Origin: Strigamia acuminata
Taxonomy: Eukaryota; Arthropoda; Chilopoda; Geophilomorpha; Linotaeniidae
Direction: 5' to 3'
Length of the DNA stretch: 64,000 bases
Assembly (NCBI GenBank): GCA_949358305.1
Contig: OX442314.1
Span: 54,135,369 to 54,199,368, forward strand
The position numbers and the translations under genes are program-made. The notes under the pieces were generated by a model. It saw only the letters and a program-made list of their open reading frames with translations, made no database searches and had not been told where the DNA came from. Below are positions 755 through 41,408 of the stretch, in pieces. How positions within the stretch are numbered: the first letter of the stretch is position 1; the number at the start of each line of letters is the position of its first letter.

Positions 755-811
755 GCTGCTTGAAATAGTACAGTGTAATGTCAATAATACAAGGTACAAA
801 GCAGCATGCAC

Positions 812-4915: not shown

Positions 4916-4969
4916 CTAAAAAAATAAAATGAGTTACATTGTGTTTGATTATTGTTAAGTATATACAAA

Positions 4970-5880: not shown

Positions 5881-5881
5881 A

Positions 5882-17248: not shown

Positions 17249-17252
17249 AGCT
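17249..17252. repeat. Target site duplication AGCT (left)
   Basis: AGCT precedes the 5' LTR and recurs at 30753-30756 directly after the 3' LTR, confirming the outer limits of the 13.5-kb element. Confidence 0.9.
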
Positions 17253-18091
17253 TGTGGTGACCCGACTGGACCGGGGTCAACGAAGAGTTTCTCTCGTGAC
17301 CTCGTTTCGGGTGTAAGGGGAGCCGCAAGCGCGTCTCCCTTCCCTCAGTGCATTGACATCTAGTCAATGGACAGGCGTCTGCCCTGAGGGAGTGGGGATG
17401 GCTCGTCCACCCCACCATTGGGTGATTCCGGTCACCTGTCAACCCCGCTTTGTGCAAAGGAATGTGCCTTGCACTGAGCGGGCAGAACCAACACAACCAT
17501 CAAACGAGAAACACACGTAAACCCGTCGTCCTACAAGATCAGGCCCAAGTAAATATACTGGGATTGACCAAGGACAAAGGACAATTTACCGTGAGTACGT
17601 TTGGTCAGTGTCAAACTCCGCAGAGTAACCTGCGAGATAAGATTACCACACTATTTTAGCACACCAGCTAGAAATAGTAAAAACCACTCCAGTTTAGCGA
17701 GTTGTGCAGACAAACGGTCGCACAAGCCTAAACTGCAGTAAAACCACGACGAGCGTTCCCGCCGCTGTGTGACCGCCGGGAGCCAGAAGAGTCCGCCGCT
17801 GTGTGATCGCCGGACACCACACAAAAACCTAGACAACAGACCGAAGTAAGCCTTTTAACTAAGCATTCACTCGCGCCTGACCAGCGTGAGCCCGAAGGAC
17901 CAGCCAGAGACGAGCCGAGTACGCCATATTGCCACGCCGGCCCAAGACGACATCACGTTGCCACAACGAGGACGCCATCTTGGACACAACCGAGACAACA
18001 GACGACCTCGCCGATTCCAGCCAGCTTTCATCTTACCTTTACCTTTCCATTTCCCATCACCCATTCCGATTTACCTTTTACTTACCTCTCA

Positions 18092-18104
18092 TATATATAT
18101 ATAA
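18092..18104 (+). promoter_or_regulatory. LTR TATA box
   Basis: An alternating TATATATATA run ending in AAG, about 25-30 bp upstream of the probable RNA start and just before the AATAAA signal. The truncated LTR at 40559-41408 breaks exactly at this run. Confidence 0.6.
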
Positions 18105-18129
18105 GATATATCTGTACATTGTCCCACAG

Positions 18130-18135
18130 AATAAA
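18130..18135 (+). terminator. LTR polyadenylation signal
   Basis: AATAAA located 26 bp after the TATA run. In the 3' LTR the equivalent copy is at 30614-30619 and would direct 3' end formation. Confidence 0.55.
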
Positions 18136-18270
18136 TCTATATTATATTTTACCTTTTATATCTGTGTAATCATTTCTTTGGGTAAACCGCTTGAGACAAA
18201 GCGGTAGTGAGTTAGTCGAATTAAGTAATCAACCCACGAGTTAGCGACGGTTAGAGTTGAGCGCGACACG

Positions 18271-18288
18271 TGGGGGCCTGTCCGGGAT
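18271..18288 (+). promoter_or_regulatory. Primer binding site, tRNA-Pro type
   Basis: Two bases after the LTR the sequence TGGGGGCCTGTCCGGGAT matches 16 of 18 positions of the classical tRNA-Pro primer site (the difference is CT versus TC at positions 8-9). The assignment is by recall of that consensus. Confidence 0.7.
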
Positions 18289-18340
18289 CAAGTTGAATAA
18301 CTGATTCTAACCTGTGATTACATCATACCCAAAGCAAGAA

Positions 18341-21300
18341 ATGGCAGATAATACTCGAGTAACAGACTCCGACTCAGACGTTAACAAACGAGCCGGTAGT
18401 CGCAAAGGAACCGACTATCATTTGAGGTCGGGAGGTCCTTTGCCCAAAGCCTCAGCGCACGAGTCTAGGCAAAAACGCCGCAAGGCCAAGCCAGACCGAC
18501 GAAGCGCTTCGGAGGCATCGCACCCGTCTCACGCCGAGACGAGGCAGCGATTAGACGAGACGGAGCGGAGTGAGGATCCGTCCCACCCCAAACCGCCGCG
18601 TCCCAATCGTGACGGCGAGACGAGCGGAAACGAGGTTTTATCCCGTAACCAATCGCCTCGTCTAACGCACGATACCGAGGTGAGCGATCCGAGAGCGACG
18701 TCTTCGATACAAAGGACGGCGTCCGACACGACAGCGAATTCAGCGCTAAACACGCCAGTTACACACAGTCGACCAGCCTCGGTAATGTCTGAAGGGCACA
18801 AGTCCAACTCGTCCTCTGTCAAGCGTGTTTCGAGCCAGCCTTACAGCGTCTCGGGCACCTTGATTGATGCGATGCAATTGGCACAAGCGGAGGGAGTGAG
18901 ATACACCCTTCCGACGGGAAAGATTACAGTGTACGAAACGTTACAAATCGTACGTGCAGCTTTAAAAGCGCACAGTGTATCCCCACAAATCACCATTGTT
19001 GAAGGTGCACACGCTCAACAATTGGTTGATTCCGCTCAATTTGAAGCGGATGCAGAGAACGAGGCTCGACAAGCCATTCGCGAGAGACGGAGGAAGCTGG
19101 CGGAAAGAGAAGCGCAAGCTCTCGAGTACGGCAGAACCCAGCCCAATCCGACTACTCCCGAGGAGGTAGAAATAGTTGACCGAGCCCTGAGAGCACATCG
19201 ATATGCTTTCCACTCGCAACAAGAAGCAGAGCGAGCATTTATGGCCAGATTGCGACGAGATGACCCGAAATCCGTTCGCAAACCAGAGGTCAGTTCATCC
19301 GAGCTGTCCGACGAGAGCCTAGAGGGAGACCCAAAGCGCACGCCGAAGGCCAAACCCAAACCCCAGCCGGAGAGGGCAACACCAGCTACTCCGCGCAAGA
19401 GAGATGCGTCGGCCAGAGAACAACAAACTCGGCCCCGCATGCAAGCTCTCGATTCGGCCACAAATAATGCGATAACGCGGTTAATCAACGCTAATAATGC
19501 TAGGCGAAATGAAGAGCAAGCTCTCACAAGCCAACAACATGATAATCCGCAAGGGACTGAGTGGCAACAACCAGTGCCCATCCTTAAAGACGACGAGTCG
19601 TCAAGGAGACAATCGCATGATCGCACCTCTTCGCGAGAAGAAGGCAAACGCGAGGAAAGACCGAAATATTATCACTACGGAAATAGTGATTCGTCGTCAG
19701 ATGGACTGGAGTCAAATGCACCCAGTCATCACGATTCGGAGAGAGGTTCCGGAGAAAGACGAAGGGAAAGAGAACGCGATGAACGCAGGGAAAAGGAACG
19801 TGACGCCCGACGTAGGGGCCGGAAAGAGTCGAACTCTTCACGGCGCAACCCGCCACGCCGCTCACCGTCCCCCGACCCCAGCTCCGACCCCTCATCCAAC
19901 GACGACAGACGAAAGGATAAATCAAGTAATCGCCGGAAGAGATCCAACTCTCCGCGCGATAGAGAGAAACGACGTCGATCGGAAAATAGCGACCACCGAC
20001 GGGAGGAGTTTCAGGACCTTCCCCGACAAAGCGCGTTTACCGATTCGACGGGTCGGCAGTATACGATGGGAGAGCTTGGAAGAGCACTACTTGGCTCGTT
20101 AAAAGCCGAGGGAATCGATCTGAGCAAACGAAATGATCGTAATCGTAACACTGGTGACCGCGTAAAGAAAAAATATGCTGTCTCCCGGCGTGATACAATG
20201 AGTGTCACCGGGAATATTAGGTGGCAATTTTATATTCAGAACCGTTTCGACGGGTCATGGAAAGCGGGAGATCGCTTCCTTGACGAAGTAATTCGAATTA
20301 AGACTGCCACTAAAGCCACCGTAGGAGACATGCTCACCCACGGTATTGTCGAGCTAATGACAGGCTCGGCACGTGAGTGGTACCAAGGATTGAAAGGCGT
20401 CAATTGGGACGACTTTTTAATGAGATTCGACCTGCGCTACGGCGAGACACCCGAAGAGGTGAGCCGAAAGATGCGAGGTCTTCGCCAGATGCCTGGTGAA
20501 ACCATAATGGATTACGACATTCGCGCCAGATTGTTGTTCGAAAAGGCCCCGATGGAATTTCATGCCACGGGATTCAACCTTTTCTTTCTCGGCGGTTTGT
20601 CGGAGTACTCGCAACGGGTGTTACTTGAAGAAAGGGCACCGACAGGAGGCAGCTACGAGGAGATGAGCGCCTTCCTGTTCGAGAACACGATAGATATCGA
20701 GAAGAGGTATTATTCCGCTTTACCAGAAGCGGAGAAAGCAGCAACCGCTAAACGTCTCAAGTTGAGTGCGGAAAGATATGGGGCGACAGATAAGATTATG
20801 CGCCCTACTGAATATCTTAGCGGTATAATGGAGCTGGCAGAAGCTAGCGTTGGTTTACAAATAAAAAATAAACTGACATCTACGCTGCCTTCCAACCCTT
20901 TGGCCGCCCCTAAAAAGGCACCGACAGCGTCAGCCATGCAAGCGACACTGGAGGAGGTCAAGGAGGGGGAGGAAGCCGGACAAGATACCGGAAAATCAGA
21001 CGAAAAAGAAGAAAAAGACGATTATTCGACGGACGAAGAAATACGAAGCTATCGCGATACCTTATCAACGGGTTGCGATGAAGAAGGACCGCTAGTACAT
21101 CTCATCCATCGAGATAGAGCGGTAGAAGAATTTCGCGCCAGGTTAAAACCAAATGCCGGCCGAATTCCGAAGTATTTTCGGAAAAATTACACGCCACCGT
21201 CGAAAGCAGACCCTGAAAAGAAAAAATCGACTGAAGCCCCAAGAGACAAATCAAATATTCGCTGTTTCAAGTGTAACCAACCGGGTCACTATTCCAATGA

Positions 21301-21424
21301 GTGCCCAAGAACAGCGAAAGAAGACGCTAAGTTTGACGCGATAATGAAGCAGATGGCAGAGATTAAACTCGCCATGGCAAAAAACGAGTCAAAAAACGAG
21401 TCAGCGCAGGCGGCGAAGAAGTAA
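18341..21424 (+). CDS. Gag polyprotein of the 13.5-kb element
   Basis: A 1027-codon frame from ATG 18341 (AAGAAATGG context), the first ATG matching a Gag-like start. Residues about 1-460 are low-complexity and charged, with an acidic/basic helical stretch around 225-300. Residues about 466-556 form an Arg/Ser/Glu-rich region (RRRERERDERREKERD, RRSPSPDPSS, KRSNSPRDREKRRRSE) resembling SR/RE domains of splicing proteins. A capsid-like segment begins near residue 628 (RFDGSWKAGDRFLDEV). One CCHC knuckle, CFKCNQPGHYSNEC, lies near residue 974. Gag forms the particle and binds RNA. The protein is about twice the usual gypsy Gag length. It ends at TAA inside the loop of a predicted frameshift hairpin. 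Confidence 0.9.
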   Translation: MADNTRVTDSDSDVNKRAGSRKGTDYHLRSGGPLPKASAHESRQKRRKAKPDRRSASEASHPSHAETRQRLDETERSEDPSHPKPPRPNRDGETSGNEVLSRNQSPRLTHDTEVSDPRATSSIQRTASDTTANSALNTPVTHSRPASVMSEGHKSNSSSVKRVSSQPYSVSGTLIDAMQLAQAEGVRYTLPTGKITVYETLQIVRAALKAHSVSPQITIVEGAHAQQLVDSAQFEADAENEARQAIRERRRKLAEREAQALEYGRTQPNPTTPEEVEIVDRALRAHRYAFHSQQEAERAFMARLRRDDPKSVRKPEVSSSELSDESLEGDPKRTPKAKPKPQPERATPATPRKRDASAREQQTRPRMQALDSATNNAITRLINANNARRNEEQALTSQQHDNPQGTEWQQPVPILKDDESSRRQSHDRTSSREEGKREERPKYYHYGNSDSSSDGLESNAPSHHDSERGSGERRRERERDERREKERDARRRGRKESNSSRRNPPRRSPSPDPSSDPSSNDDRRKDKSSNRRKRSNSPRDREKRRRSENSDHRREEFQDLPRQSAFTDSTGRQYTMGELGRALLGSLKAEGIDLSKRNDRNRNTGDRVKKKYAVSRRDTMSVTGNIRWQFYIQNRFDGSWKAGDRFLDEVIRIKTATKATVGDMLTHGIVELMTGSAREWYQGLKGVNWDDFLMRFDLRYGETPEEVSRKMRGLRQMPGETIMDYDIRARLLFEKAPMEFHATGFNLFFLGGLSEYSQRVLLEERAPTGGSYEEMSAFLFENTIDIEKRYYSALPEAEKAATAKRLKLSAERYGATDKIMRPTEYLSGIMELAEASVGLQIKNKLTSTLPSNPLAAPKKAPTASAMQATLEEVKEGEEAGQDTGKSDEKEEKDDYSTDEEIRSYRDTLSTGCDEEGPLVHLIHRDRAVEEFRARLKPNAGRIPKYFRKNYTPPSKADPEKKKSTEAPRDKSNIRCFKCNQPGHYSNECPRTAKEDAKFDAIMKQMAEIKLAMAKNESKNESAQAAKK

Positions 21425-21442
21425 TTTCTCGACCGTCTGCGC
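21379..21442 (+). promoter_or_regulatory. -1 programmed ribosomal frameshift signal (gag to pol)
   Basis: Two tandem slippery heptamers A AAA AAC (21379-21385 and 21391-21397) lie in the exact gag register. Six bases after the second, GCGCAGGCGG (21404-21413) pairs with CCGTCTGCGC (21433-21442) to give a 10-bp stem with one G-U pair; the gag stop is in the 19-nt loop. Pol is in the -1 frame and has no stop from the heptamers onward. Confidence 0.82.
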
Positions 21443-21447
21443 CATTC

Positions 21448-24400
21448 ATGAAGAAGAAGGGGTTTAACAAAGGGTTCGATAGGCCGCCACCAGTCAAAGA
21501 AATGGGTAGTGAAATAGCTAACGCCCAAATTCAAGACAGGGCCAACAACGCTTTGCAGGTAATCACCGCAAACGCTGAGGCTGAGGCGGAAGAACCGAAC
21601 CTACTGCTTGAAGAATTACCTCAAGTAGTCGAAGACACAGAAGAATTTCGTGTTTTCATGTGCAACGTGGCGGTCGAATACACCAACCGCCTATGCATGT
21701 TGCCCATGACAATAGAACGTGAAAAAATTATGGGACTGCTAGACTCGGGAGCAGATCGCTCGTTCGTTTCCGAAGACATAGTAGCATCATTGGGTCTCAC
21801 CGATAAGATAAAAGGCGTTAATAAAAATATACGTCTAAAAACCGCCAACGGAATGGCGCGTCCAAAAGGAGTTATATTATTGACCATGGAGTGGCTCGGA
21901 GGGGTAGAACAGCACCCTTTCCTGGTCCTGCCCACATGCGACAGAAGTTTTCTGTTGGGCTTAGACCTCATGGCGTCAATGGAAATACAACCAAATCCAA
22001 TAACGAAATCTTGGAATTATATCAGAAATGATAAGGAAAGACCCGCAATTGTCGTGCCACCAGCTCTTGTAAAAGAAGCGGCCGACAAGACACAGTGGGA
22101 GAAAGGCCTAAAGAAATTCGTTCAAGAGTACGATTTTAAAGCATTCGTAACAGAATTGCAACGGGACAATGTAGTGGAAACGCTTGTCGCCGACGCCGCT
22201 TTAGAATTAAACGAAGCAGCAGCCCTACGAAGGGTCCTACTTAAATATGAGGGGATCCTGTCGAAAAAACCGGGCCGAACGAATAGGGCTATTCACGAAA
22301 TTAAATTGACGGATAATAAACCTATACGAGTTGCGTATAAGGGAATGAACCCGCAAAAACGTGAAATAGTGCAAAAAATGTGCCAAGAAATGCTAGACAG
22401 TGGCATTGTCTCCGAGGCCCAGGGAGAATACGCGACGCAAGTTGTGCTCGTGATGCGCCCGGGCTCGGACCCACGCCTATGCATTGATTACCGCCCATTA
22501 AACGCGGTGACAGAGATAGATCCCATACAGATGCCGTCTATCGAATCCATTTTAAGAGAGCTTAGCCCCTTTTCTTGGGTTACGACGATGGATCTGTCAA
22601 AGGGATACTGGCAAGTGGAGATGAGGCCAGAGGATAAGCTAAAAACAGCATTTTACTCGCCAATTGGACGGTTGATGTTCAACGTCATGCCATTTGGTTT
22701 AGTGAACGCTCCCAGTACCTTTCAGAGACTAATCGAAAGCGTATTGGGTGATATCCTGCACCAGTTTGTATGGGCATACCTAGATGACATAGTTATTGCC
22801 TCTAATACATTCGAAGAGCACGTTGAGCACATCGACCAAGTGCTCACCCGGCTGGCAAAAGCTGGGTTACACGTGCACCCGGGCAAGAGCAAGTTCTGTC
22901 GAAAGGAGCTTGCCTTCCTGGGTTATCGCATTGGAGTCAATGGTTTAGCTATTGGCCCCGAAAAAATCGATGCGATTAATCGTTTCCCACCACCCGAGGA
23001 CGTTAAAGGTGTCCAACGGTTTATGGGAATGATAAACTTCTTTGGCAGGTTGCTACCGGGTCTAGCTGAAGTGGCAGCCCCAGTTACCGACCTCCTGAAG
23101 AATGAAAACGAATTTGTATGGTCAAATGAGTGCAACATCGCATTTAATGCGATAAAGAGGATGCTGACGGAAGTCGGCGTAATGCCTCTACCCGACTTAA
23201 ACCGGCCGTTCATATTACATACGGACGCCAGCAGAGTTGGGTTGGGAGCCGCGTTGCTTCAAACACACGTGCGCAACGGAGTCAAACAAGACCTGCCGTG
23301 CATGTTTATAAGTCGCAAACTCCAAGGCGCTGAAAAAAATTACAACGCCACAGAGTTGGAGTGTTTGGCAGTTGTGTGGGCCATAAGGAAATTCAGAGAT
23401 TATCTCGAATATACCAAATTTGTGGTCCACACAGATCATCAAGCGTTACAATGGCTGATGAAATTAAAGGAGCCAGCCGGTCGACTAGCCAGATGGCAGT
23501 TAGAACTGATGGCATGCGACTTGACCATTCAATACAAGCCCGGCAAATATAACGTCGTGGCTGACGCTCTGTCACGGGCACCAGTGTCAGATCCAATCGA
23601 CGCTGACGATGATGGCGAGGATGACTCCCGCATCATTTATTGCCCTACGAGTTGTCACCGTTGGGATTTAAGGAAGATGAATGAAATTCCCACCGCGTCT
23701 CCAGCAGACGTAAAATTCTGTGGATTCTGGACGCGATTATACCAACCAGCTGCTGACAATTACCCAAATGCAAAGAAGGAATTTAAGCTAGAGCGGAGAA
23801 TAAATGACCCGCTTCTAAGCGCCTTCCACGCTCGTGTCGGAAAGCAAATGAAAAGCAATCCCCCAACAAGGGAGGAAATAATTGTGCAACAAAAATTAGA
23901 CAAAAAATGTCAGGACAGAGCTAGATTCGTACTGACAGGAAAATATCCGCCCAACTTAACCAGAAGGCAGAAGCGTCGTTATGCACACGAATCCATAGAT
24001 TACCTATTGGATGACGGCCTTTTGGTGAAACATCACCCAAATCACCAAGATGACTTGAGTGAATCGGACACCGCAGTAAAGGTAGTAATACCTGCTTCCT
24101 TAATCGGTCGCGTGCTGTGGTTGTTACACGGGCACCCGCTTGCGAGCCATGCGGGAGTAAGCAGAACACTCTATCGTGCTACACAGCTTTTTCACTGGAC
24201 AGGGATGAAAAAAGATATTGCTCTTTTTGTCCACCAATGTCAGCGATGTCAAGCGTGCAAGCCGAGGAGTAAATCACCATTCGAAACTATTTTCTTAGGG
24301 CCTTACGCGCCTTTTGATTGTTTAAGTGTCGATGTGATGGGCCCAAAACCCGTTACGGGAAATAAAAATGCGTACATTATCGTTATAATGGACGTAGCAA

Positions 24401-25518
24401 CTCGTTGGCCCGAGTTGTACGCCGTCGCTAGACCTTCAGCAGAAAAAATCGTTGAATGCATCTACGACGTAGCGTTACGTTATGGATTTCCACGTAAAAT
24501 AATATCCGATAACGGACCCCAATTTATCTCGAAAATTTGGGGTAAGTTTTGTGAGAAATTCGGGATTGTGGCGTCACATACTTCGACCTACAACCCCAGA
24601 ACAAATCCCGTTGAGCGACTCAACAGGGACATTAAATATGCACTAAGCATATTCACTGACATCCACAATAGGTGGGATGAATACTTGAGGGAGATCGCGT
24701 TCAGCATACGAACAACAGTCTCGAGGACGAGAGATTTTTCTCCGGCCTACCTCAACTTCGCCCGAGAGCTACGAGTGCCTTGGGACCCACGAGTGGCAGA
24801 GTCGGTAAATGTGGTGGACCCAGAGAAACCACATGAGTATGTGTATAAATTGGAACAAACAATTTCGAGCACATACAAACATATGATGGCGCACATTTTT
24901 AACATGCGCGACCGCATTTTACAAGATAAAAGCGGTGGAAAATTCGTGAATTTCGAGATCAATGATTTGGTGTGGAAAGATGCACACACCCTCTCAAATG
25001 CAGCGAGAGGGATCACCGCCAGCTTGGCCGACAAGAGAGATGGTCCGTATGTGATCATCGGCAAGCATGGCGGTAACGCGTATAAATTACGTAAGCTCGA
25101 GGACAATACCGAGCATAAATCGATACAAGTACGAGAGTTAACTCCGTACATTCCGGAATTCCCGCAAGAAATGTGGGCCAAAGGCCAAGTCAAGTCTAAA
25201 ACTGACGGCCAAATCGTCGATATGTTCGCTGGCGAGTCGGAAAAAGCACCGCCAAGTGACAACGAGGAGTATTTCGACGCCCCTTCACCTCCGGTCAACG
25301 AGATCGTTGAATCCGTTCCGGATCCAATTTTGGTCGGGGGGGAAACAGGAGAAACTCCTGAAACAAACACAAAAAACACGGATGAAAAAGAAAACAATAA
25401 TGAGGAGGTACAGACACAAAAAACAACAAAAAATATCGTACCTGCCTCGATCCGTAACCTGCGACCAAAAAGAGATAATCCGTTTATAAAAGGCGGAAAG
25501 GTCGTAGGAAAGAAGTAA
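21448..25518 (+). CDS. Pol polyprotein: protease, RT, RNase H, integrase
   Basis: The first in-frame ATG is 21448, but the frame is open back into gag and is probably entered by -1 frameshifting. Domains in order: aspartic protease with LLDSGADRSFV (catalytic Asp at residue 99 counted from that ATG); RT with TMDLSKGYWQ and the YLDD box at 444-447; RNase H starting HTDASRVGLGAAL near 591; integrase zinc finger HPLASH...CQRCQAC from 896; and the integrase catalytic triad Asp962 (SVDVMGP), Asp1021 (SDNGPQF), Glu1056 (PVERLN), followed by a DGPY chromatin-module motif. The D-x34-E spacing is that of the NP(T/V)ER-type gypsy integrases. The acidic C-terminal tail is about 150 residues. All key residues are present. 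Confidence 0.95.
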   Translation: MKKKGFNKGFDRPPPVKEMGSEIANAQIQDRANNALQVITANAEAEAEEPNLLLEELPQVVEDTEEFRVFMCNVAVEYTNRLCMLPMTIEREKIMGLLDSGADRSFVSEDIVASLGLTDKIKGVNKNIRLKTANGMARPKGVILLTMEWLGGVEQHPFLVLPTCDRSFLLGLDLMASMEIQPNPITKSWNYIRNDKERPAIVVPPALVKEAADKTQWEKGLKKFVQEYDFKAFVTELQRDNVVETLVADAALELNEAAALRRVLLKYEGILSKKPGRTNRAIHEIKLTDNKPIRVAYKGMNPQKREIVQKMCQEMLDSGIVSEAQGEYATQVVLVMRPGSDPRLCIDYRPLNAVTEIDPIQMPSIESILRELSPFSWVTTMDLSKGYWQVEMRPEDKLKTAFYSPIGRLMFNVMPFGLVNAPSTFQRLIESVLGDILHQFVWAYLDDIVIASNTFEEHVEHIDQVLTRLAKAGLHVHPGKSKFCRKELAFLGYRIGVNGLAIGPEKIDAINRFPPPEDVKGVQRFMGMINFFGRLLPGLAEVAAPVTDLLKNENEFVWSNECNIAFNAIKRMLTEVGVMPLPDLNRPFILHTDASRVGLGAALLQTHVRNGVKQDLPCMFISRKLQGAEKNYNATELECLAVVWAIRKFRDYLEYTKFVVHTDHQALQWLMKLKEPAGRLARWQLELMACDLTIQYKPGKYNVVADALSRAPVSDPIDADDDGEDDSRIIYCPTSCHRWDLRKMNEIPTASPADVKFCGFWTRLYQPAADNYPNAKKEFKLERRINDPLLSAFHARVGKQMKSNPPTREEIIVQQKLDKKCQDRARFVLTGKYPPNLTRRQKRRYAHESIDYLLDDGLLVKHHPNHQDDLSESDTAVKVVIPASLIGRVLWLLHGHPLASHAGVSRTLYRATQLFHWTGMKKDIALFVHQCQRCQACKPRSKSPFETIFLGPYAPFDCLSVDVMGPKPVTGNKNAYIIVIMDVATRWPELYAVARPSAEKIVECIYDVALRYGFPRKIISDNGPQFISKIWGKFCEKFGIVASHTSTYNPRTNPVERLNRDIKYALSIFTDIHNRWDEYLREIAFSIRTTVSRTRDFSPAYLNFARELRVPWDPRVAESVNVVDPEKPHEYVYKLEQTISSTYKHMMAHIFNMRDRILQDKSGGKFVNFEINDLVWKDAHTLSNAARGITASLADKRDGPYVIIGKHGGNAYKLRKLEDNTEHKSIQVRELTPYIPEFPQEMWAKGQVKSKTDGQIVDMFAGESEKAPPSDNEEYFDAPSPPVNEIVESVPDPILVGGETGETPETNTKNTDEKENNNEEVQTQKTTKNIVPASIRNLRPKRDNPFIKGGKVVGKK

Positions 25519-25534
25519 AATAAATTACGAGTCG

Positions 25535-25765
25535 ATGGCGGCACTAAAAATAAATTCTAATCGACCGATAGTGCAAGCCATCACGTTGCGAGACTCGAAG
25601 AAAATTTCGCTAAGTCCAACAAAGCGATGTCGGTCGAATTCACGTCACAAGATGGCGTGGAAACGCGGGACCCGTAGCAAAATTATCGGCACGGGTCGGA
25701 TACCGCGTGCAAAAGACCCCGTAGCAGCAATCGCGCACGGGAGTGAGAACAAAGGAGACCCGTAG
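25535..25765 (+). CDS. Small basic ORF between pol and ORF3, uncertain
   Basis: A 76-codon frame from ATG 25535, 16 bp after the pol stop, encodes a Lys/Arg/Ser-rich peptide (RDSKKISLSPTKRCRSN) with no recognised domain. It could be a genuine accessory protein, but its length is within what chance allows in GC-rich sequence. No related copy was available for comparison. Confidence 0.22.
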   Translation: MAALKINSNRPIVQAITLRDSKKISLSPTKRCRSNSRHKMAWKRGTRSKIIGTGRIPRAKDPVAAIAHGSENKGDP

Positions 25766-25819
25766 CGTAACATGCGCACGGGTAGGTGCGCACTAGTCTC
25801 AAACACCCGGGTTCTGGAG

Positions 25820-25826
25820 TATATTA
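25820..25826 (+). promoter_or_regulatory. Possible internal TATA box for ORF3
   Basis: TATATTA stands alone in a GC-rich stretch, about 170 bp upstream of the ORF3 leader ATG in GCCATGG context. An internal promoter here would explain how the leader exon becomes the first exon of a short mRNA. Weak evidence. Confidence 0.25.
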
Positions 25827-25996
25827 CCCAGAATCCATCGCGATTACCTCGTGTTCACACGGACTTCCGCTTTTCACAGCTGATCACTGCATTCGTGCGT
25901 GATCCTCGTTTTTAACGTTTTTACCGAGTTTTTTTGAGATAGTTTTATCATCCTTTTTTCAATCGTGATTGAGCTTTTTTGTGCGCGCTCCTCGCC

Positions 25997-26086
25997 ATGG
26001 ACGAGGAAGAGAACGACGTGCTTGCCATCGAGCACGAGGACGAGGCAAACTGGGACCACGATGTAAACCAAGTCCCACCCGATCAG
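25997..26086 (+). CDS. Leader exon of ORF3 (30 codons)
   Basis: ATG 25997 has an ideal GCCATGG context and starts a highly acidic peptide (MDEEENDVLAIEHEDEANW). After 30 codons comes CAG|GTAGAAGT, a good donor match at a codon boundary. Unspliced, the frame would end after 44 codons at TGA 26129. Spliced to 26935 it continues in phase into the 921-codon ORF3 body. The acidic leader contrasts with the basic body. Confidence 0.65.
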
Positions 26087-26934
26087 GTAGAAGTCGGCAT
26101 CGGCACACGAGAATTAGTTCCGTGCTGCTGAAAAAGAAATTTTGTTTGACTAATACCTGACATGAGTGCTTTGCACTCGCAATAGCGTATAATTAATTAT
26201 TAACCGCGATCGCTCACACGATCGTATTTTTTCCTTGTTAATTTGTTTTCGGGATGCGATCGTAGACTTCACGTCGCCTCGCGTCTCGAAAATTCCTCAT
26301 GACATGAGTCACGAGCGAGACAATGGGCTCGAGCCATAAATAATTTTATGACAAGGGGAGAATATTCTGTAAAAGAATATTTTTCTCCACAAGTAATTTG
26401 ACGCATCAAATTGATGCAACTTAACATTCGTACGATGAATTTTTCGATGTGTTAGATAAATTTAATTTGACTTTAACTTTTTGTTAAAAAATTAGACAAA
26501 GTCCGACTTCGGAATAATTCTTTATTAGGTTTATTTATTTAATAAAATTTCGACAAGCACATTTATTGTGCAATTTTAGTAATAATTTACACCCGACGAA
26601 TTCTTTTTACGAATGACTGATAATTATTAATTTAATTATTAGTAATGTCCTAATTAACGTTAGAATTAATTTGAAGTAAAATCTGATGATAAGAATCCAG
26701 ATTAAAGGCTCGATTCCGTCTCGCTGTGCGTTTTGGACATGAGACAGATTTTTTTACGTGATGACTTCTCTTTTTCTATCCGACGAGGGACAATTCGTCC
26801 TACGTTTGCACCGATAGACAGGAATCGGTCTCGACGGACGGCTGCACGTATCGGCAACGTCCCTCGAAACCAACCATTTATCTACGTATTTAATATTAAC
26901 TTTTTATTAATTGTTTATTTCTCCACCCTTCCAG
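26087..26934 (+). other. Predicted intron of ORF3, 848 bp
   Basis: GTAGAAGT at the 5' end. A TTAAC branch-like site at 26896-26900, a pyrimidine tract and CCAG at 26931-26934 form the 3' end, directly before ATG 26935. The interior is strikingly AT-rich compared with the GC-rich coding sequence on both sides and has no long frame. Confidence 0.7.
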
Positions 26935-29700
26935 ATGGCATTACGTAAAACATGGGGACCACTAGACCCCGCTTGCATCACTCGTGGCGGGATATTTCGA
27001 GGCGCGCTGCCCGAATTTTACCGACGATGTTTCGGCGAGGACGCCGACCCTTGGCGCCTGCGAATACTACATTCCCGATGCATCGCCCGACGTTGGGTAC
27101 GAGATTGCACGCTCCTGGACACGTTCCCGGAGGGGATGCGCGAAGGCATCGCCACAGAGTTAGCTCGTGACGATGACCCGAAATCGCCAATTTTCCACCC
27201 CGGATTGTCAAGTCAGTACACTGGCAACCCGGCGGAGGAACACGTGCTGCACGCGTGGCGAGCAGCCGAGACAGAAGAGGCCCGTGAGGCCATCTATCAG
27301 CATTATAGACAACAGCTGGTGGATACGGCTGCGGCAGTGGCCGAGCGCATCCTCCAAAACGAGGGGATGACCGCGGATGATATTCATCTGTGGTTTGAGA
27401 GGCTGCGATTGGGGGAGAGTACGCCCCAGTGGAGACCTCGGATGGGAATTTTAACGTCCCAAGCCGAGATGTGGCAGCTCCACCACCTGGGGATTTTGGG
27501 GCCCAAGAGCAGCTACCCGCGGAAGAGCAAGCGCTCCAAAGGCGCCGGGGACAGCCAGTCGCGTTCCCCGGCGACAACCAAGAAGCAGCGTGTCGCTCAA
27601 AACACGACTGAAAGCAACGAAGCTGGGCCATCCACTAGTACAGTGCGTGACCCTTCGCAGTATTCCCGACCGCGAATTTTCGTAAACCGTCAGATTAAAG
27701 ACGGTAAGGAGTGCAAGGAGGTTTGGATGTCTGGTGACGAAGAGCGAGTCTCTCGTCCCAGCACTTCTAGACGTCCGCTGACTCATCGCGAGCAGCGGAA
27801 AAAAGATCGCAAGGAGCGATACTTCGCGAGGTGCGAAGCTCGGGGCCGTCCCATCCCCGAACCCGCCTACATCTCCAAGAGAGCGGGTCGACGAAGTGGT
27901 AGCCAGTCAGGTGAGCGAAACGTCCCAGCGGCAGATACGCGGGACCTTCGCGAGATTCTGACTCAGATGAAGCGGACGAAACTGACACGTTTCGATCCCG
28001 CAATGAAACACGCCAGGAAGATGGGTGTTGTCACCGACGGAATGGTGACCCCACACGAGGTGGCAAGGTGGCTCGCAGACTATATAAATTCGCGACCGCG
28101 ACCCGATGGCATGCCAACCGCCATCGTGCAGCCCTCGAGCTCCGGACAACATCTCCCGGCGCCCCAAGTCGCAATGACTGGAGTGCAGACGACGGAGACG
28201 CCACCACCGCCGACGCAGCCACCACCACCGCTGCCGACGCCACCGCTGCCGACCAAGACGCAGCCGCCTCCGAACCTGCCGCCGCCGTCGTTGCTGAATT
28301 CGAGCGATCCGCCGGATTTACCCACCGACCGCTCAGTCCTTCTCCCCGTTGGACAGAGCATTATGCAGGAATGTCGAGCCAATTTGACCGGCATTTACAG
28401 GCCGAGCCGACCCCGTCCCGGTTCCTCGGCCCTGTTCTTCGAGAGGCGAGACGAAGAAGCGCGACTCGCGAGAGAAGCCGCCAACCCGACTATCTCCGAG
28501 CTCTCAGCGTTTCGCTTCGTGATGGAAGACCCAAGAGTCTCCGCACCCGCCTTGCGAGGTGTGGATCAAGCCCAGCGATATTTCATCGAATGGGCAACGG
28601 CGATGATGAGTAAGCTCTCGTGTGCCTTCACTGCGGATTCGGAGCGATCGAATCCAGTGAATCGTCGCAGCCTACAGCTATCATTGACCAAGGTCATGAT
28701 GCAGCTGCTAACCCCAGCACTCTTCGGAGAAGGGCGTCAGGCGATGGCCGCATGGTCTGTCGTGGACAGAGAGGGTGTACAGGTTCCCCGTGCACTCCTC
28801 GCAGAGTGGAGCTCCATTCTGCCCGACCCTGTGTTGACTCGCTACGAGCTAACCAGGGATGTGGTAAACCCAGAATTTGAAGGGTACAAGTTGCGAAGCA
28901 CGGCGTTTCGTTACACCTCCGCCACCTGGACAGCGGCGCCTACCCAACAACTGCGCGCCTTGACCATCCAGACGGAAGAATCGGCAGAGGATGTAGACAT
29001 GGTGATCTCGCCGACGAGCGGAGTTCCGATTCCGCCAACGATGCCTGCGGAGATATCCCCGCAAGGACCCGCCCTGTTTGAAGTGGCGGGTAAACCCAAG
29101 CGCTTGCTGTGCCGAACGCCACCCGTCAGGTCCGTCGAGCAAACGAAGCCGACACCGCCCGAGGCCCCACCGGCTCGAGCGGCGACAACGACGCAAGCCG
29201 TGATTCCCGCGGCCACCCAGAAGCCGAAGCCGGCACCGCCTCCACCAGACTATTACGGGCGAATCATCGAAGAGTTTCCCCATCTTTCGATGACAACGGC
29301 GACCAGGAGGTTTATCCTCGCACAACGGGATAAAGGCAAATCGGTCTTCATCTGGCTTCACAACCAGATACGGAAGACTAAGGACCTCATCTTCCACCAG
29401 AGGTTGCTGAGAGCCCACCGTGCACCAGTGACGCCAGCGGAAGCCAATGCCATCCGGCATACGAACACCGGCTTCTCCGCCTACATCCCGAGCGTTTGGT
29501 TACACGAGAGGACGCGTGCCCCGCATGAGCCAGTTGACGGCCATGCATTATGCTTCATTACGGAGCATGAGGACCCCCGAGATCGGTCCTCGGCGCTAGT
29601 AGGCGATCTACCCGCGCCACCCGGCACTCAACCGCCTGTCCCTGGAGTGAGTTACGCCCAGGTGACGGACTCAGTGTCGGGTCCCCCAGAAAAGAAGTGA
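26935..29700 (+). CDS. ORF3 of the 13.5-kb element, unknown function
   Basis: A 921-codon frame from ATG 26935, which directly follows a splice acceptor. It sits where env lies in errantivirus-type gypsy elements, but I see no signal peptide, transmembrane segment, cysteine pattern or fusion motif. Visible features: an N-terminal helical region (about 1-170); basic clusters resembling nuclear localisation signals (RKSKRSK near 198; REQRKKDRKER near 290); a proline-rich block near 423-460 (PPPPTQPPPPLPTPP); a folded-looking central region (about 520-700); a second Pro/Ala-rich linker near 735-775; and a C-terminal domain starting DYYGRIIEEFP. The composition suggests an intracellular, probably nuclear or nucleic-acid-associated protein. 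The stop is about 25 bp before the polypurine tract. No family is recognised. Confidence 0.85.
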   Translation: MALRKTWGPLDPACITRGGIFRGALPEFYRRCFGEDADPWRLRILHSRCIARRWVRDCTLLDTFPEGMREGIATELARDDDPKSPIFHPGLSSQYTGNPAEEHVLHAWRAAETEEAREAIYQHYRQQLVDTAAAVAERILQNEGMTADDIHLWFERLRLGESTPQWRPRMGILTSQAEMWQLHHLGILGPKSSYPRKSKRSKGAGDSQSRSPATTKKQRVAQNTTESNEAGPSTSTVRDPSQYSRPRIFVNRQIKDGKECKEVWMSGDEERVSRPSTSRRPLTHREQRKKDRKERYFARCEARGRPIPEPAYISKRAGRRSGSQSGERNVPAADTRDLREILTQMKRTKLTRFDPAMKHARKMGVVTDGMVTPHEVARWLADYINSRPRPDGMPTAIVQPSSSGQHLPAPQVAMTGVQTTETPPPPTQPPPPLPTPPLPTKTQPPPNLPPPSLLNSSDPPDLPTDRSVLLPVGQSIMQECRANLTGIYRPSRPRPGSSALFFERRDEEARLAREAANPTISELSAFRFVMEDPRVSAPALRGVDQAQRYFIEWATAMMSKLSCAFTADSERSNPVNRRSLQLSLTKVMMQLLTPALFGEGRQAMAAWSVVDREGVQVPRALLAEWSSILPDPVLTRYELTRDVVNPEFEGYKLRSTAFRYTSATWTAAPTQQLRALTIQTEESAEDVDMVISPTSGVPIPPTMPAEISPQGPALFEVAGKPKRLLCRTPPVRSVEQTKPTPPEAPPARAATTTQAVIPAATQKPKPAPPPPDYYGRIIEEFPHLSMTTATRRFILAQRDKGKSVFIWLHNQIRKTKDLIFHQRLLRAHRAPVTPAEANAIRHTNTGFSAYIPSVWLHERTRAPHEPVDGHALCFITEHEDPRDRSSALVGDLPAPPGTQPPVPGVSYAQVTDSVSGPPEKK

Positions 29701-29725
29701 TCGCTCAGCCCCACGGTCTGAGCTC

Positions 29726-29736
29726 GGAGGGGGAAG
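29726..29736 (+). promoter_or_regulatory. Polypurine tract
   Basis: GGAGGGGGAAG lies immediately 5' of the 3' LTR, the standard position for plus-strand DNA priming. Confidence 0.85.
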
Positions 29737-30752
29737 TGTGGTGACCCGACTGGACCGGGGTCAACGAAGAGTTTCTCTCGTGACCTCGTTTCGGGTGTAA
29801 GGGGAGCCGCAAGCGCGTCTCCCTTCCCTCAGTGCATTGACATCTAGTCAATGGACAGGCGTCTGCCCTGAGGGAGTGGGGATGGCTCGTCCACCCCACC
29901 ATTGGGTGATTCCGGTCACCTGTCAACCCCGCTTTGTGCAAAGGAATGTGCCTTGCACTGAGCGGGCAGAACCAACACAACCATCAAACGAGAAACACAC
30001 GTAAACCCGTCGTCCTACAAGATCAGGCCCAAGTAAATATACTGGGATTGACCAAGGACAAAGGACAATTTACCGTGAGTACGTTTGGTCAGTGTCAAAC
30101 TCCGCAGAGTAACCTGCGAGATAAGATTACCACACTATTTTAGCACACCAGCTAGAAATAGTAAAAACCACTCCAGTTTAGCGAGTTGTGCAGACAAACG
30201 GTCGCACAAGCCTAAACTGCAGTAAAACCACGACGAGCGTTCCCGCCGCTGTGTGACCGCCGGGAGCCAGAAGAGTCCGCCGCTGTGTGATCGCCGGACA
30301 CCACACAAAAACCTAGACAACAGACCGAAGTAAGCCTTTTAACTAAGCATTCACTCGCGCCTGACCAGCGTGAGCCCGAAGGACCAGCCAGAGACGAGCC
30401 GAGTACGCCATATTGCCACGCCGGCCCAAGACGACATCACGTTGCCACAACGAGGACGCCATCTTGGACACAACCGAGACAACAGACGACCTCGCCGATT
30501 CCAGCCAGCTTTCATCTTACCTTTACCTTTCCATTTCCCATCACCCATTCCGATTTACCTTTTACTTACCTCTCATATATATATATAAGATATATCTGTA
30601 CATTGTCCCACAGAATAAATCTATATTATATTTTACCTTTTATATCTGTGTAATCATTTCTTTGGGTAAACCGCTTGAGACAAAGCGGTAGTGAGTTAGT
30701 CGAATTAAGTAATCAACCCACGAGTTAGCGACGGTTAGAGTTGAGCGCGACA
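29737..30752 (+). repeat. 3' LTR of the 13.5-kb element
   Basis: The copy of 17253-18268 at an offset of 12484. Every reading frame inside has an identical translation and I found no difference, so the insertion is very recent. It is followed by the AGCT duplication at 30753-30756. Confidence 0.95.
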
Positions 30753-30756
30753 AGCT

Positions 30757-33658: not shown

Positions 33659-33830
33659 TGGAGTGTCTTACTCCATAGGTCAATCTTGACCAATCGTTAT
33701 GTTTCGGCGCTTTTAAGAGCAGCGCCACCTATATTGTAATTCTTGAATAAATCAGTCACTTTAGTTTAACTCAGCTGACATGTTGCTTTCTTGACCACTA
33801 CCTACATCAACGATAAATAAATACACAACA
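33659..33830 (+). repeat. 5' LTR of gypsy element B
   Basis: 172 bp ending ACACAACA, matching 38276-38446. The start reads TGGAGTG against TGTTGGAGTG in the 3' LTR, a 3-bp difference. Confidence 0.9.
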
Positions 33831-33848
33831 ATTGGCGACGAGGGGGAT
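33831..33848 (+). promoter_or_regulatory. Primer binding site of element B
   Basis: ATTGGCGACGAGGGGGAT directly follows the LTR. TGGCGACGAG-type primer sites are common in Mag/K02A2.6-type gypsy elements and are usually assigned to tRNA-Ser; the assignment is by recall. Confidence 0.55.
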
Positions 33849-34034
33849 CGCAATCGACGACCCACGACCAGATGCAGTATCGTATCTACTTTTTTGTGAG
33901 TTTTTTGATCGTTTGATGAACTTTTTGGCCATTTTTGACCGTTGCTGACCACGCCGTCCCCGAAGTAGGCCTAGTCGTTTTGTGCTTCGAATTTTCCCGT
34001 TTTTTGTGCCATATTCCGTCTCCTTGCCATCAAG

Positions 34035-35714
34035 ATGTCGACGTTGAAAGGCACACCTCGCGAATACGATCCCAACGACGACTGGGAACTATATTGCTTG
34101 CAAATGGCGAGTATTTTCGCCTGCAACAAAATAGTTGATGATACGGAGCAGGTTCATACGCTGATTTCGTACGTGGGAATGCCGACGTTTAAGCTTTTGG
34201 TGTCGCTTGCAGCACCCAAAAAGCCGGCTGAACTGAAGTACGCCGAATTAGTAGCGCTCGTGCAGAAGAACGCCCGCCCGAAGCCGCTTACTTTGGCCGA
34301 AATTCGACGATTCCACCGGCGCGATCGCCTGCCAGGTGAATCGGTTACCGACTATGCCGTGGTTCTGCAGGAACTCACCATGAATTGCGACTTCAAAGAA
34401 AATAAAGCAGACGAGCTGCGGAATCGATTTTTGTGTGGCCTGCAAAACGAGCAGGTCCAACAAGCGTTAACCCTGAAAACTGATTTGACTTTCGACGACG
34501 CTGTTTCTTTTGCGGCTTCCGCTGAGGTGTCATCGAAGGAGTTTTCAACTATTGCTGCCCAAAATACCACCGCCACTTCTGTGCATAAACTCCACGAGTC
34601 AAAGCCGCGTTACGAGCCGAACAAGCGAGGCGGGAAGCGTTTCGTGAAGAAAAATGCTGCTTTTCCTGTTCCACACCAACCATCTAGTAAAGGAAATGCG
34701 TCGGGGTGCTCAGCCTGTGGAAAATCGAACCACTCGCGCGATTCGTGTCGTTTTCGAGACGCCAAGTGCCACGGCTGTGGTAAAACTGGACATATTCGTC
34801 CGGTGTGTCGCTCTCGTGTTCCAGCATCGGATTCCACTCACGTTGTTCGTTTTAACGAGGACATGGACTTCTATCGAGTTCACACTGGTCCCGCAACTGC
34901 AGTTAATTCCGTGCATTTGCCACGTGTGAAGCCAGTTATGATCACCATTTGTATCGATGGTGTCAATCTCGATATGGAGATGGACACGGGGGCAGGTGCT
35001 TCAATTATTGCTCTTGATTTATATCTAAAACATTTCTCTCATTTTCCATTGCAGACCATCTCGTGCAACATGTACACGTACACAGGCGACCAAATACAGA
35101 TGGAGGGAGTTATCGAGGTTCCTGTCAGGTTCAAAAATCGAAATTTCTTATTGCCACTCTGTGTCGCACGGGATGGTCCAGTTCCGTTGTTGGGCAGAGG
35201 TTGGTTATGCATGTTCGGGCTCCTTTCAAAAACTGCTGAAGCGGTCGGCGCGAAAATCTACAAGGTCGATTCCGTTGCAACTCAGCCCGAGGTTCTTGAT
35301 TCCACTTCAGCCAAAGCTTTGGAAACGTTGTTGCTGAAGCACGAGCACACTTTCCGAAATGAAATTGGTTGCTTTAACAAGTCCACAGTTCACATTGACG
35401 TTGATCCAACGGTGCAGCCGATTTTTCTAAAAGCTTATCCAGTCCCCATAGCAGTTAAGCCATTGGTCGAGACTGAATTGGCGCGTTTGCAAGCGCTCGG
35501 TATTATAACTCCTGTCGCATCATCACGTTGGGCAACGCCCGTGATGCATGTTAAAAAGTTTGATGGCACCATCAAATTGGCTGGTTGCTACAATCGGACA
35601 ATTAACAAAGCTATTTTTCCCAACTCATATCCTTTGCCTTTATTTGCAGATGTGACCGCCAAATTATCGGGGGGGGAAAACTTATTCAGTATTGGATATG
35701 AATTCAGCTTTTAA
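34035..35714 (+). CDS. Gypsy element B Gag-protease and N-terminal RT
   Basis: From ATG 34035 (AAGATGTCG). Residues 1-200 form a compact retrotransposon Gag (FHRRDRLPGESVTDYAVVLQEL). Two zinc knuckles, CSACGKSNHSRDSC and CHGCGKTGHIRPVC, lie near 224-260. The aspartic protease MEMDTGAGASII is near 315. The RT N-terminus begins about residue 470 (LGIITPVASSRWATPVMHVKK). Gag and protease are in one frame, without a frameshift signal between them. The frame leaves RT after an 8-G run at 35669-35676 and ends a few codons later. Confidence 0.85.
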   Translation: MSTLKGTPREYDPNDDWELYCLQMASIFACNKIVDDTEQVHTLISYVGMPTFKLLVSLAAPKKPAELKYAELVALVQKNARPKPLTLAEIRRFHRRDRLPGESVTDYAVVLQELTMNCDFKENKADELRNRFLCGLQNEQVQQALTLKTDLTFDDAVSFAASAEVSSKEFSTIAAQNTTATSVHKLHESKPRYEPNKRGGKRFVKKNAAFPVPHQPSSKGNASGCSACGKSNHSRDSCRFRDAKCHGCGKTGHIRPVCRSRVPASDSTHVVRFNEDMDFYRVHTGPATAVNSVHLPRVKPVMITICIDGVNLDMEMDTGAGASIIALDLYLKHFSHFPLQTISCNMYTYTGDQIQMEGVIEVPVRFKNRNFLLPLCVARDGPVPLLGRGWLCMFGLLSKTAEAVGAKIYKVDSVATQPEVLDSTSAKALETLLLKHEHTFRNEIGCFNKSTVHIDVDPTVQPIFLKAYPVPIAVKPLVETELARLQALGIITPVASSRWATPVMHVKKFDGTIKLAGCYNRTINKAIFPNSYPLPLFADVTAKLSGGENLFSIGYEFSF

Positions 35715-38121: not shown

Positions 38122-38267
38122 TACTTGTGTATGTTTTAAATTAATTGATTTCATTTTGTGTTAGTTTAAATTCCAACTTTGTTCTTTATTAGCTTTTATA
38201 TACATGTGTTTAATGTTTAATTTGTTTTATCCTTTTCTTGATTGTATAATTGGTGTTTCTCCCAATT

Positions 38268-38275
38268 AAAGGGGA
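38268..38275 (+). promoter_or_regulatory. Polypurine tract of element B
   Basis: AAAGGGGA ends immediately before the 3' LTR. Confidence 0.8.
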
Positions 38276-38446
38276 TGTTGGAGTGTCTTACTCCATAGGT
38301 CAATCTTGACCAATCGTTATGTTTCGGCGCTTTTAAGAGCAGCGCCACCTATATTGTAATTCTTGAATAAATCAGTCACTTTAGTTTAACTCAGCTGACA
38401 TGTTGCTTTCTTGACCACTACCTACATCAACGATAAATACACAACA
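38276..38446 (+). repeat. 3' LTR of gypsy element B
   Basis: 171 bp, TGTTGGAGTG...TACACAACA, directly after the polypurine tract. Confidence 0.9.
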
Positions 38447-38726
38447 AAAAATTTTTTTTTACTGTTCAAATGGGCAGCATATGCCTTGCTCGCCTCAGCT
38501 GGAAATATGTGTTGCACCGGCCCTGTTGAGAATTCACCACAAGTCATCGTGGATTCTAGTCGCCGACGTGTTGAGAACCGACGGCACCGACGCCATTTTA
38601 TTTCGAAGCGAGCGACGAGAAGCCATAATCGTCGCGAGCAACGTGAAGATTTCATTATTTCTTTTCACATTAATATTGAATATTTATGTAATTTTACCTT
38701 TAATTTTATTTGTTCATTCTTTTATA

Positions 38727-39480
38727 CAGGGTGAACAAAAAGTCTGTATCTTTACTTAATATTTCTGAAAGTGCTGACAATGCATCTAATCTGATGATGG
38801 CAAAGTACTAAAGTTGGGTGGGGAAATCTTTTGATGACCCAAAATTTGACATTGAGTTGTTGCTTCAAGGTCATTGAGAAATTATCTCGGAAACCGTTAG
38901 AGATAGACTGAAATTTCCAATTGTAAACTTGTAGACCATCATTTGTTTAGTCTAAAAATGACTAATGCTCAAATCTTTTGTACTAAAATTATTTAAGAAA
39001 ATCGCAATTTTCTAAAGTAAACACAAGTAAAAAAAAAAATGCCCCAAATTGAAAAAGTGTCAAAAACGTGCTGATTAGACGTAAAATGATCCAAAAAATC
39101 GATTCCCCTGGTCGGAATTTGCATATCTAGCACCGTTGCAGAGATATGGGCAAAAAACTGAATTTTTTTATGACTTTCTTTTCAAAACTACTTTTTCAAT
39201 TGTGATTTTCTTAAAATTTTTTAGTACAAAAGATTTGAGAATTAGTCATTTTTAGACTAAACAAATGTTGCTCTACAAGTTTACAATTGGAAATTTCTGT
39301 CTATCTCTAACGGTTTCCGAGATAATTTCCCAATGACCTTGAAGGAACATCCCAAGGTCAAACTTTGGGTCACCAAAAGATTTCCCCACCCAACTTTAGT
39401 ACTTTGCCAACATCAGATTAGATGCATTGTCAGCACTTTCAGAAATATTAAGTAAAGATACAGACTTTTTGTTCACCCTG
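38727..39480. mobile_element. 754-bp foldback element with TA flanks
   Basis: CAGGGTGAACAAAAAGTCTG at the left is inverted at the right as CAGACTTTTTGTTCACCCTG. Homology between the arms extends more than 200 bp inward (the CTCTAACGGTTTCCGAG segment appears in both orientations). TA flanks both sides (38725-38726 and 39481-39482). No coding capacity; Tc1/mariner-type MITE by target site. Confidence 0.85.
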
Positions 39481-39483
39481 TAT

Positions 39484-40557: not shown

Positions 40558-40558
40558 T

Positions 40559-41408
40559 TGTTGTGACCCGACTGGACCGGGGTCAACGAAGAGTTTCTCT
40601 CGTGACCTCGTTTCGGGTGTAAGGGGAGCCGCAAGCGCGTCTCCCTTCCCTCAGTGCATTGACATCTAGTCAATGGACAGGCGTCTGCCCTGAGGGAGTG
40701 GGGATGGCTCGTCCACCCCACCATTGGGTGATTCCGGTCACCTGTCAACCCCGCTTTGTGCAAAGGAATGTGCCTTGCACTGAGCGGGCAGAACCAACAC
40801 AACCATCAAACGAGAAACACACGTAAAACCCGTCGTCCTACAAGATCAGGCCCAAGTAAATATACTGGGATTGACCAAGGACAAAGGACAATTTACCGTG
40901 AGTACGTTTGGTCAGTGTCAAACTCCGCAGAGTAACCTGCGAGATAAGATTACCACACTATTTTAGCACACCAGCTAGAAATAGTAAAAACCACTCCAGT
41001 TTAGCGAGTTGTGCAGACAAACGGTCGCACAAGCCTAAACTGCAGTTAAACCACGACGAGCGTTCCCGCCGCTGTGTGATCGCCGGGAGCCAGAAGAGTC
41101 CGCCGCTGTGTGATCGCCGGACACCACACAAAAACCTAGACAACAGACCGAAGTAAGCCTTTTAACTAAGCATTCACTCGCGCCCGACCAGCGTGAGCCC
41201 GAAGGACCAGCCAGAGACGAGCCGAGGACGCCATATTGCCACGCCGGCCCAAGACGACACCACGTTGCCACAACGAGGACGCCATCTTGGACACGACCGA
41301 GACAACAGACGACCTCGCCGATTCCAGCCAGCTTTCATCATACCTTTACCTTTCCATTTCCCTTCACCCATTCCGATTTACCTTTTACCTACCTTTCATA
41401 TATATATT
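40559..41408 (+). repeat. Truncated LTR of the 13.5-kb family
   Basis: Matches the first ~850 bp of the 1016-bp LTR with a few substitutions and one-base indels (for example TGTTGTGACCC at the start and an extra A near 40827). It ends in the TATATATA run and continues directly into the satellite region. R and U5 are missing. Confidence 0.93.

Follow-up and report, generated by a model that had tools for sequence, protein, structure and literature searches.

The 64,000-nucleotide stretch of the Strigamia acuminata genome analysed here (contig OX442314.1, positions 54,135,369 to 54,199,368, forward strand; called the window, with coordinates counted from its first letter) contains a large Ty3/gypsy-type long terminal repeat (LTR) retrotransposon whose third gene, referred to as open reading frame 3 (ORF3), lies in the env position and is split by an intron. 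As judged from the genomic copies of the element, it is nearly certain that this intron is spliced by cells, and the product of the gene is very probably not an envelope. The best explanation for the system as a whole, held with about even confidence, is a two-exon accessory gene encoding a nuclear regulator; the specific proposal that the ORF3 protein handles the RNA of its own element, by analogy to CERV of the Cer1 element, is put forward somewhat more tentatively. The gene is composed of the following parts.

25519..25996, plus strand: spacer between pol and ORF3, a candidate regulatory region or 5' untranslated region (UTR), with one YY1-like AAGATGGCG
25997..26086, plus strand: leader exon of 30 acidic codons (MDEEENDVLAIEHEDEANWDHDVNQVPPDQ), its ATG at 25997-25999
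26087..26934, plus strand: intron of 848 nt, GT...AG, phase 0
26935..29700, plus strand: ORF3 main exon, 921 codons plus stop, with an ATG at 26935
29254..29601, plus strand: conserved domain at the C-terminal end of ORF3, residues 774-889, sharing 32% identity with the related family B

The original prediction, which was made from the letters of the window, had joined the 30-codon leader to the 921-codon frame by a phase-0 splice, and its coordinates are confirmed: codon 30 of the leader ends at 26086 with CAG, followed by GTAGAAGT, the acceptor TTCCAG ends at 26934 directly before ATG 26935, both sides are in phase 0 and the joined frame is open. The 848-nt intron, described there as AT-rich, shows a GC content of 35.8% versus 56.7% in the leader and 59.7% in ORF3. 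Its donor, GTAGAA, agrees poorly with the splice donor consensus GTRAGT.

The splicing of the intron is indicated by one copy of the element on contig C6 of the same genome (237.5 Mb in 157 contigs were searched), which lacks exactly the intron, the end of the leader being joined to the start of ORF3 at C6:10318262/10318263. A pattern search in which the end of the leader and the start of ORF3 could be 0-20 bases apart matched this one place in the genome, with a gap of zero, and a junction probe allowing up to 3 mismatches returned the same single place and none other, compared with 272 sites (at most 1 mismatch) at which the leader is followed by donor and intron. Upstream of the junction, 1,509 nt align to positions 24576-26086 of the window at 96.3%, and the alignment resumes at the acceptor at 97.0%. 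The copy extends from a 5' LTR start at 10309427 to a 3' LTR end at 10322084, is flanked by an AGTT target duplication, and measures 12,658 bp versus 12,652 bp expected (13,500 minus 848); judging from this length, nothing besides the intron is missing. When the two overlapping loci that cover it are translated separately, the 30-codon leader and the body share a single open frame, in agreement with a 960-codon frame listed at this place. The copy is best read as an LTR-to-LTR RNA lacking this intron alone that was reverse-transcribed and integrated. The same product would be yielded by a microhomology deletion, since CAG flanks both ends of the intron, and one may therefore suppose that there is no splicing at all, that ORF3 is translated from ATG 26935, which does begin the main exon in the family of this element (family A), and that the C6 copy is a chance CAG/CAG deletion. 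However, 67,870 distinct deletions of 400-1500 bp with at least 3 bp of microhomology are possible in a 5.8-kb stretch, and the one observed would have to fall exactly on the predicted splice sites.

Further evidence comes from the other copies of family A. At least 49 full-length ORF3 matches occur in the genome, 48 of the 49 matches listed being without internal stop, and a 114-residue probe gave at least 150 matches, with no stop inside the probe in 149 of the 150 listed. The comparison of frame and splice sites suggested in the original prediction was carried out on 24 distinct copies (27 loci, including three duplicates), which were drawn from the 49 best-scoring ORF3 matches and so lean to intact copies. 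ORF3 has 921 codons in 23 of the 24, the remaining one (L040) having a stop after 615 codons, and leader, donor and acceptor are kept in 23 as well, with other sequence upstream in L047. The leader measures 90 nt in 21 copies and 87 nt in 2, while the intron ranges from 834 to 852 nt across the sample; if the leader is coding, its length should vary by whole codons and that of the intron freely, as seen here. The pooled ratio of nonsynonymous to synonymous polymorphism (pN/pS) of ORF3 is 0.21, and the segregating sites number 38, 33 and 124 at the three codon positions.

Another gypsy remnant of the window (6804-8072, minus strand) led to the families B and C, with B2 (L026) and B3 (L058) grouped with B. 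The reverse transcriptase (RT)-RNase H region of A is 58-59% identical to those of B, B2 and C, and together they form a monophyletic group (support 1.0) among 125 sequences. A third gene lies downstream of pol in A, B, B2, B3 and C, and these third genes are homologous: A and B ORF3 share 32% identity over the C-terminal 117 residues (BLASTP 7e-16) and 27% in the N-terminal part (4e-4), with 26-27% identity between the proteins, and the second ORF3 piece of C is 43% identical to B over 536 positions. The main exons of the B loci (L021, L022, L023, L026, L027 and L028, B2 included) begin with IERDRETPFALPDHVPTQ directly after a CAG or TAG acceptor, and their open frames of 759-762 codons contain no Met before codon 242. 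In B3 the open frame has 756 codons and Met first appears at codon 78. Another B-like locus, L057, is truncated at the locus boundary, and family C (L024) has the same main-exon start, followed by a stop after 188 codons. Because these B-type exons are Met-less for 241 or, in B3, 77 codons, a spliced leader is needed, and splicing is accordingly predicted for family B; homologous leaders are present, 36 codons long in C and 30 in the three B types (B, B2 and B3), and every one of them runs up to a GT donor in phase 0.

These leaders evolve as coding sequences, differing at the first, second and third codon positions by 3, 5 and 16 sites (B/B3), 6, 6 and 17 (B2/B3), and 7, 5 and 16 (B/B2) in three comparisons that are not independent of each other. 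For ORF3 itself, B and B3 give a synonymous rate (dS) of 0.76, a nonsynonymous rate (dN) of 0.12 and a ratio w of 0.16, while the A-B and B-C comparisons are saturated at synonymous sites. The substitution patterns show the predicted ORF3 protein to be under purifying selection in family A and in the related families. Translation from an unspliced message is hard to reconcile with the Met-less exons, with the coding-like leaders, and with an in-frame TAG that is the acceptor itself in L022, L023, L026 and B3, and this alternative appears very improbable. A side observation concerns L026 (C3:8798400-8808399), which compared with B is 69% identical in the leader and 76% upstream, but 97% in the intron and 96.5% in exon 2; B2 thus looks like a recombinant with its switch at about the splice donor.

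The claim of a 13.5-kb gypsy element with a third gene was borne out by the remaining features of the element.

17253-30752: whole element, 13,500 bp, Ty3/gypsy-type LTR retrotransposon
17249..17252: target-site duplication AGCT, with its second copy at 30753-30756
17253..18268, plus strand: 5' LTR, 1,016 bp, identical to the 3' LTR
18341..21424, plus strand: gag, counted from the first ATG (frame open from 18314), with Retrotrans_gag domain and CCHC zinc knuckle
21448..25518, plus strand: pol, with protease, RT, RNase H and integrase in this order (profile search)
29737..30752, plus strand: 3' LTR, 1,016 bp

The domain order of pol and the LTRs with TG...CA ends and a target duplication within 4-6 bp agree with Ty3/gypsy elements (Metaviridae), and LTRs with target duplication are found in the C6 copy too. 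A polypurine tract-like GGAGGGGGAAG is present, as is a stretch near the end of pol which we take to be GPY-like, and the named relatives of Pol come mostly from animals, with one from a fungus. An identity with Troyka was rejected, because the 3-bp duplications and CG...CG ends of the latter do not match the element (PMC12440569). A partial LTR copy of the element, 98.5% identical and without a nearby partner in a self-comparison of the window, lies at 40558-41411 and is perhaps a solo or truncated LTR. The window further contains a second LTR element at 33659-38453, with 175-bp direct repeats of 97% identity and open frames at 34035-35714 and 35692-38121, whose RT-RNase H is only 28.6% identical to that of the main element, as well as a large inverted repeat at 38723-39484 (287-nt arms, 94% complementary) and a long tandem array at 42245-57163 of approximately 1,015-bp units plus related blocks, in which a 155-codon frame recurs. 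The window ends (1-6831 and 57170-64000) are 100% identical over 6,831 bp, and contig C1 carries two ORF3 copies of 100% identity at a distance of 56.9 kb; the identical ends stem either from a recent duplication in tandem, some 57 kb long, or from a repeat in the assembly.

The original prediction had further described the product as free of signal peptide and membrane segments, with basic clusters and proline-rich parts, and this description holds. The isoelectric point is 9.63 for ORF3 of A and 9.23 for that of B, proline accounts for 11.2% of the residues in A, and basic clusters, a weak predictor of nuclear location, are found at residues 196, 288-289, 315 and 346 of A and at two places in B. 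The best 19-residue Kyte-Doolittle means are 1.07 (A) and 1.01 (B), which leaves no membrane-length hydrophobic segment by hydropathy; a signal peptide is not apparent in the acidic rather than hydrophobic N-terminus, as read directly from the leader with no dedicated predictor run. The proteins contain 10 (A) and 8 (B) cysteines and 3 (A) and 1 (B) N-glycosylation motifs, and a pattern search detected no CXXC or C-H cluster in either. No recognised family emerged either, in line with the earlier statement: profile and structure-database searches yielded no env or other family, with no Pfam family at E values up to 1 for the single sequence or up to 5 for an alignment of eight family A members, and no PDB match except a chance hit to filamin at E 0.79. 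Relatives outside the genome were found neither in searches of about 5.8 billion proteins, of which 7,994 and 7,996 candidates were scored at the sensitivity of the tool, nor, as confirmed cases, among 29 pattern stretches in viral contigs. AlphaFold2 models of the family B body and the C-terminal piece of A reached confidence scores (pLDDT) of 40 and 49, respectively, too poor to judge the fold.

These properties bear on what the protein may be. A divergent or unusual envelope, or a protein for cell-to-cell transmission, would suit the env position and expression by splicing, as known for Env-F of insect errantiviruses (PMC12992720), but the lack of a membrane-length segment in A and B, the few cysteines and N-glycosylation motifs and the acidic N-terminus make this quite improbable, and the transmembrane sORF2 type of about 70 residues (PMC11952523) fits no better. 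A duplicate Gag was rejected, as an hhalign comparison of ORF3 with the element's own Gag gave a probability of 0.6%. The product of the spliced gene could also act in the cytoplasm or in the particle, either as an assembly or nucleocapsid-like factor or as an antagonist of host silencing by PIWI-interacting RNA (piRNA) or RNA interference (RNAi). The basic, proline-rich composition would suit nucleic-acid binding anywhere, and the protein diverges fast, with the 26-27% A-B identity of ORF3 set against 58-59% for RT-RNase H; such rapid change is characteristic of proteins engaged in a conflict with their host. Yet the missing profile similarity to Gag speaks against a particle protein of that kind and nothing specific indicates either role, so that this reading appears rather unlikely. 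A nuclear RNA regulator is proposed instead because an element that retains an intron must export unspliced RNA, and because the product is a basic orphan made from spliced RNA only. Of the earlier suggestion of a new accessory protein, the spliced non-envelope third gene is thus upheld, while its function is a proposal.

A separate issue is the origin of the ORF3 message. The conserved noncoding sites of families B and C, for which we take the motif names YY1, E-box, X-box and CRE to apply, are suggestive of a promoter. The CRE TGACGTCA occurs upstream of the leader twice in all six B-type loci scanned, twice in B3 and once in the C locus L024, compared with one occurrence in the entire 64 kb of the window; the truncated C locus L025 also contains two. 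Just ahead of the leader ATG, all four of B, B2, B3 and C have a short stretch resembling a GT...AG intron, 66 nt long in B and B3. Their main intron contains a YY1-like ATGGCG, followed by an E-box and then by an X-box-like palindrome, which has one mismatch in B and B2 and is perfect in B3 and C. The conserved intron block of B, B2 and B3 also carries TATAAAAG, which is lacking in C, and B-B3 identity is 81.6% over 267 positions in the main intron versus 67.9% over 215 upstream. Alternatively, the message may arise by a long-range splice linking a donor close to the 5' LTR or the beginning of gag with an acceptor that precedes the leader, the usual route for Env-F in insect errantiviruses (PMC12992720). 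Candidate sites exist in the acceptor-like CTTTTCACAG at 25870-25879 and in the donor-like GTAACA at gag codon 7 (18359), but B, B2, B3 and C share the CRE sites and the short 5' UTR intron just upstream of the leader, and the long-range splice is regarded as possible, if somewhat doubtful. An internal promoter in the pol-ORF3 spacer is a good hypothesis for B and C and a weaker one for A. Outside the element, three X-box-like palindromes (GTNRCC-RGYAAC) were noted upstream of the 5' LTR at 15918, 16085 and 16247, where they sit within or beside an 82-bp-spaced repeat.

Several observations weigh against a nuclear regulator with its own promoter. The support for splicing and for the predicted protein comes from genomic sequence. 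The RNA copied at C6 was long enough for gag-pol and is silent on a short ORF3 mRNA or an internal promoter. The spacer and intron of family A are devoid of CRE, E-box and X-box and contain only the YY1-like site in the spacer, so that the promoter argument rests on B and C. No zinc finger or RNA-binding domain was recognised in ORF3. Finally, although the intron is predicted to fold strongly (z-scores of -8.0/-7.4 in A, -6.7/-7.3 in B and -5.4 in C, there over 351 of 357 nt), values between -3.4 and -9.8 were obtained for 12 further windows of 848 nt within the element. In four 848-nt windows outside the element the values were +0.8, -3.3, -3.7 and -7.1. With 270-nt windows (n=15) the A intron was strongest at -6.4, compared with -1.4 to -4.9 in nine others of the element and -1.9 to +0.9 in five outside, while with 200-nt windows it was unremarkable (-2.2 to -3.7, versus up to -5.4 in ORF3). 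In the common fold of B, B2 and B3, 5 of 84 predicted pairs show double-sided changes and 13 are broken or gapped in one of the three sequences, the covariation term being slightly unfavourable. A special RNA export element in the intron is not claimed, as other element windows fold as strongly and the results are mixed. As a separate observation, folding is in excess throughout 17253-29736 (13 windows of 848 nt including the intron) compared with weaker values in three of the four outside windows, which may reflect a genome-scale ordered RNA structure.

Under the proposed nuclear regulation, unspliced LTR-to-LTR RNA would serve as genome and as gag-pol template, whereas removal of the intron would fuse the acidic leader to the basic, proline-rich body and yield a protein of about 951 residues. 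The ORF3 mRNA would probably start from a promoter in the pol-ORF3 spacer or, alternatively, derive from a long-range splice from the 5' leader, and its product would handle intron-containing RNA in the manner of CERV or of the regulators of complex retroviruses. A much bolder extension, considered improbable at present, is that a gypsy lineage, probably of animals, evolved its own regulatory circuit in the style of complex retroviruses, consisting of a promoter-enhancer with CRE, YY1, E-box and X-box sites, an intron with a weak donor, and an orphan protein of about 790-950 residues, in which splicing would choose between genome and regulator and the protein would recognise the intron-containing RNA. 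The system provides genomic evidence that cells excise the intron and that reverse transcription can return the spliced RNA to the genome, and it reveals an orphan protein family that selection maintains in a clade of which family A alone has at least 272 donor-bearing copies. For annotation, it supplies a specific gene model that escapes a simple scan for ORFs, since the B-type main exons have no start codon near their beginning, and it makes testable how a retroelement without a known Rev-like factor exports intron-containing RNA from the nucleus.

A literature search of partial coverage found no description of this ORF3 gene, but several known systems resemble parts of it. Env-F of insect errantiviruses is likewise a third gene after pol and expressed from spliced RNA, but possesses a signal peptide, furin site, fusion peptide and transmembrane domain and has its upstream exon before or within gag, depending on the subclade (PMC12992720), whereas the ORF3 leader lies between pol and the main exon and the product has no membrane segment. 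The ORF3s of bdelloid rotifer LTR retrotransposons are also non-envelope third genes in the env position, but code (besides env-like products) for GDSL esterases or DEDDy exonucleases (PMC5408684), and the profile searches detected no such domain in the ORF3 studied here. Among plant elements, Bagy-2 forms a spliced env-like RNA (PMC7264820). Grande carries an accessory gene between pol and the 3' LTR, reported to code for a nuclear protein and to have its own promoter, but it is a plant element and the gene is antisense. Foamy viruses and Rev/Tas-type regulators, with their genes under an internal promoter and their regulation of unspliced RNA (PMC7828637), are similar in logic. The counterpart on which the proposed function is modelled is CERV of Cer1, a Ty3/gypsy-type element of Caenorhabditis elegans, a large orphan accessory protein translated from a spliced mRNA, with a basic stretch resembling a nuclear localization signal, no envelope features and fast divergence (PMC10309623). 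ORF3 is similarly a large orphan with basic clusters, without envelope features and fast-diverging, and its spliced RNA is predicted from the intronless copy. The two differ in that CERV has five exons, the first three sharing the gag frame, 517 residues and a possible C4-type cysteine finger (PMC10309623), whereas both ORF3 exons follow pol and no CXXC is present; the protein searches brought up no sequence relation, CERV itself not having been aligned. Spliced accessory genes with non-envelope products appear to be uncommon in LTR retrotransposons, CERV being the clearest animal case in the literature consulted.

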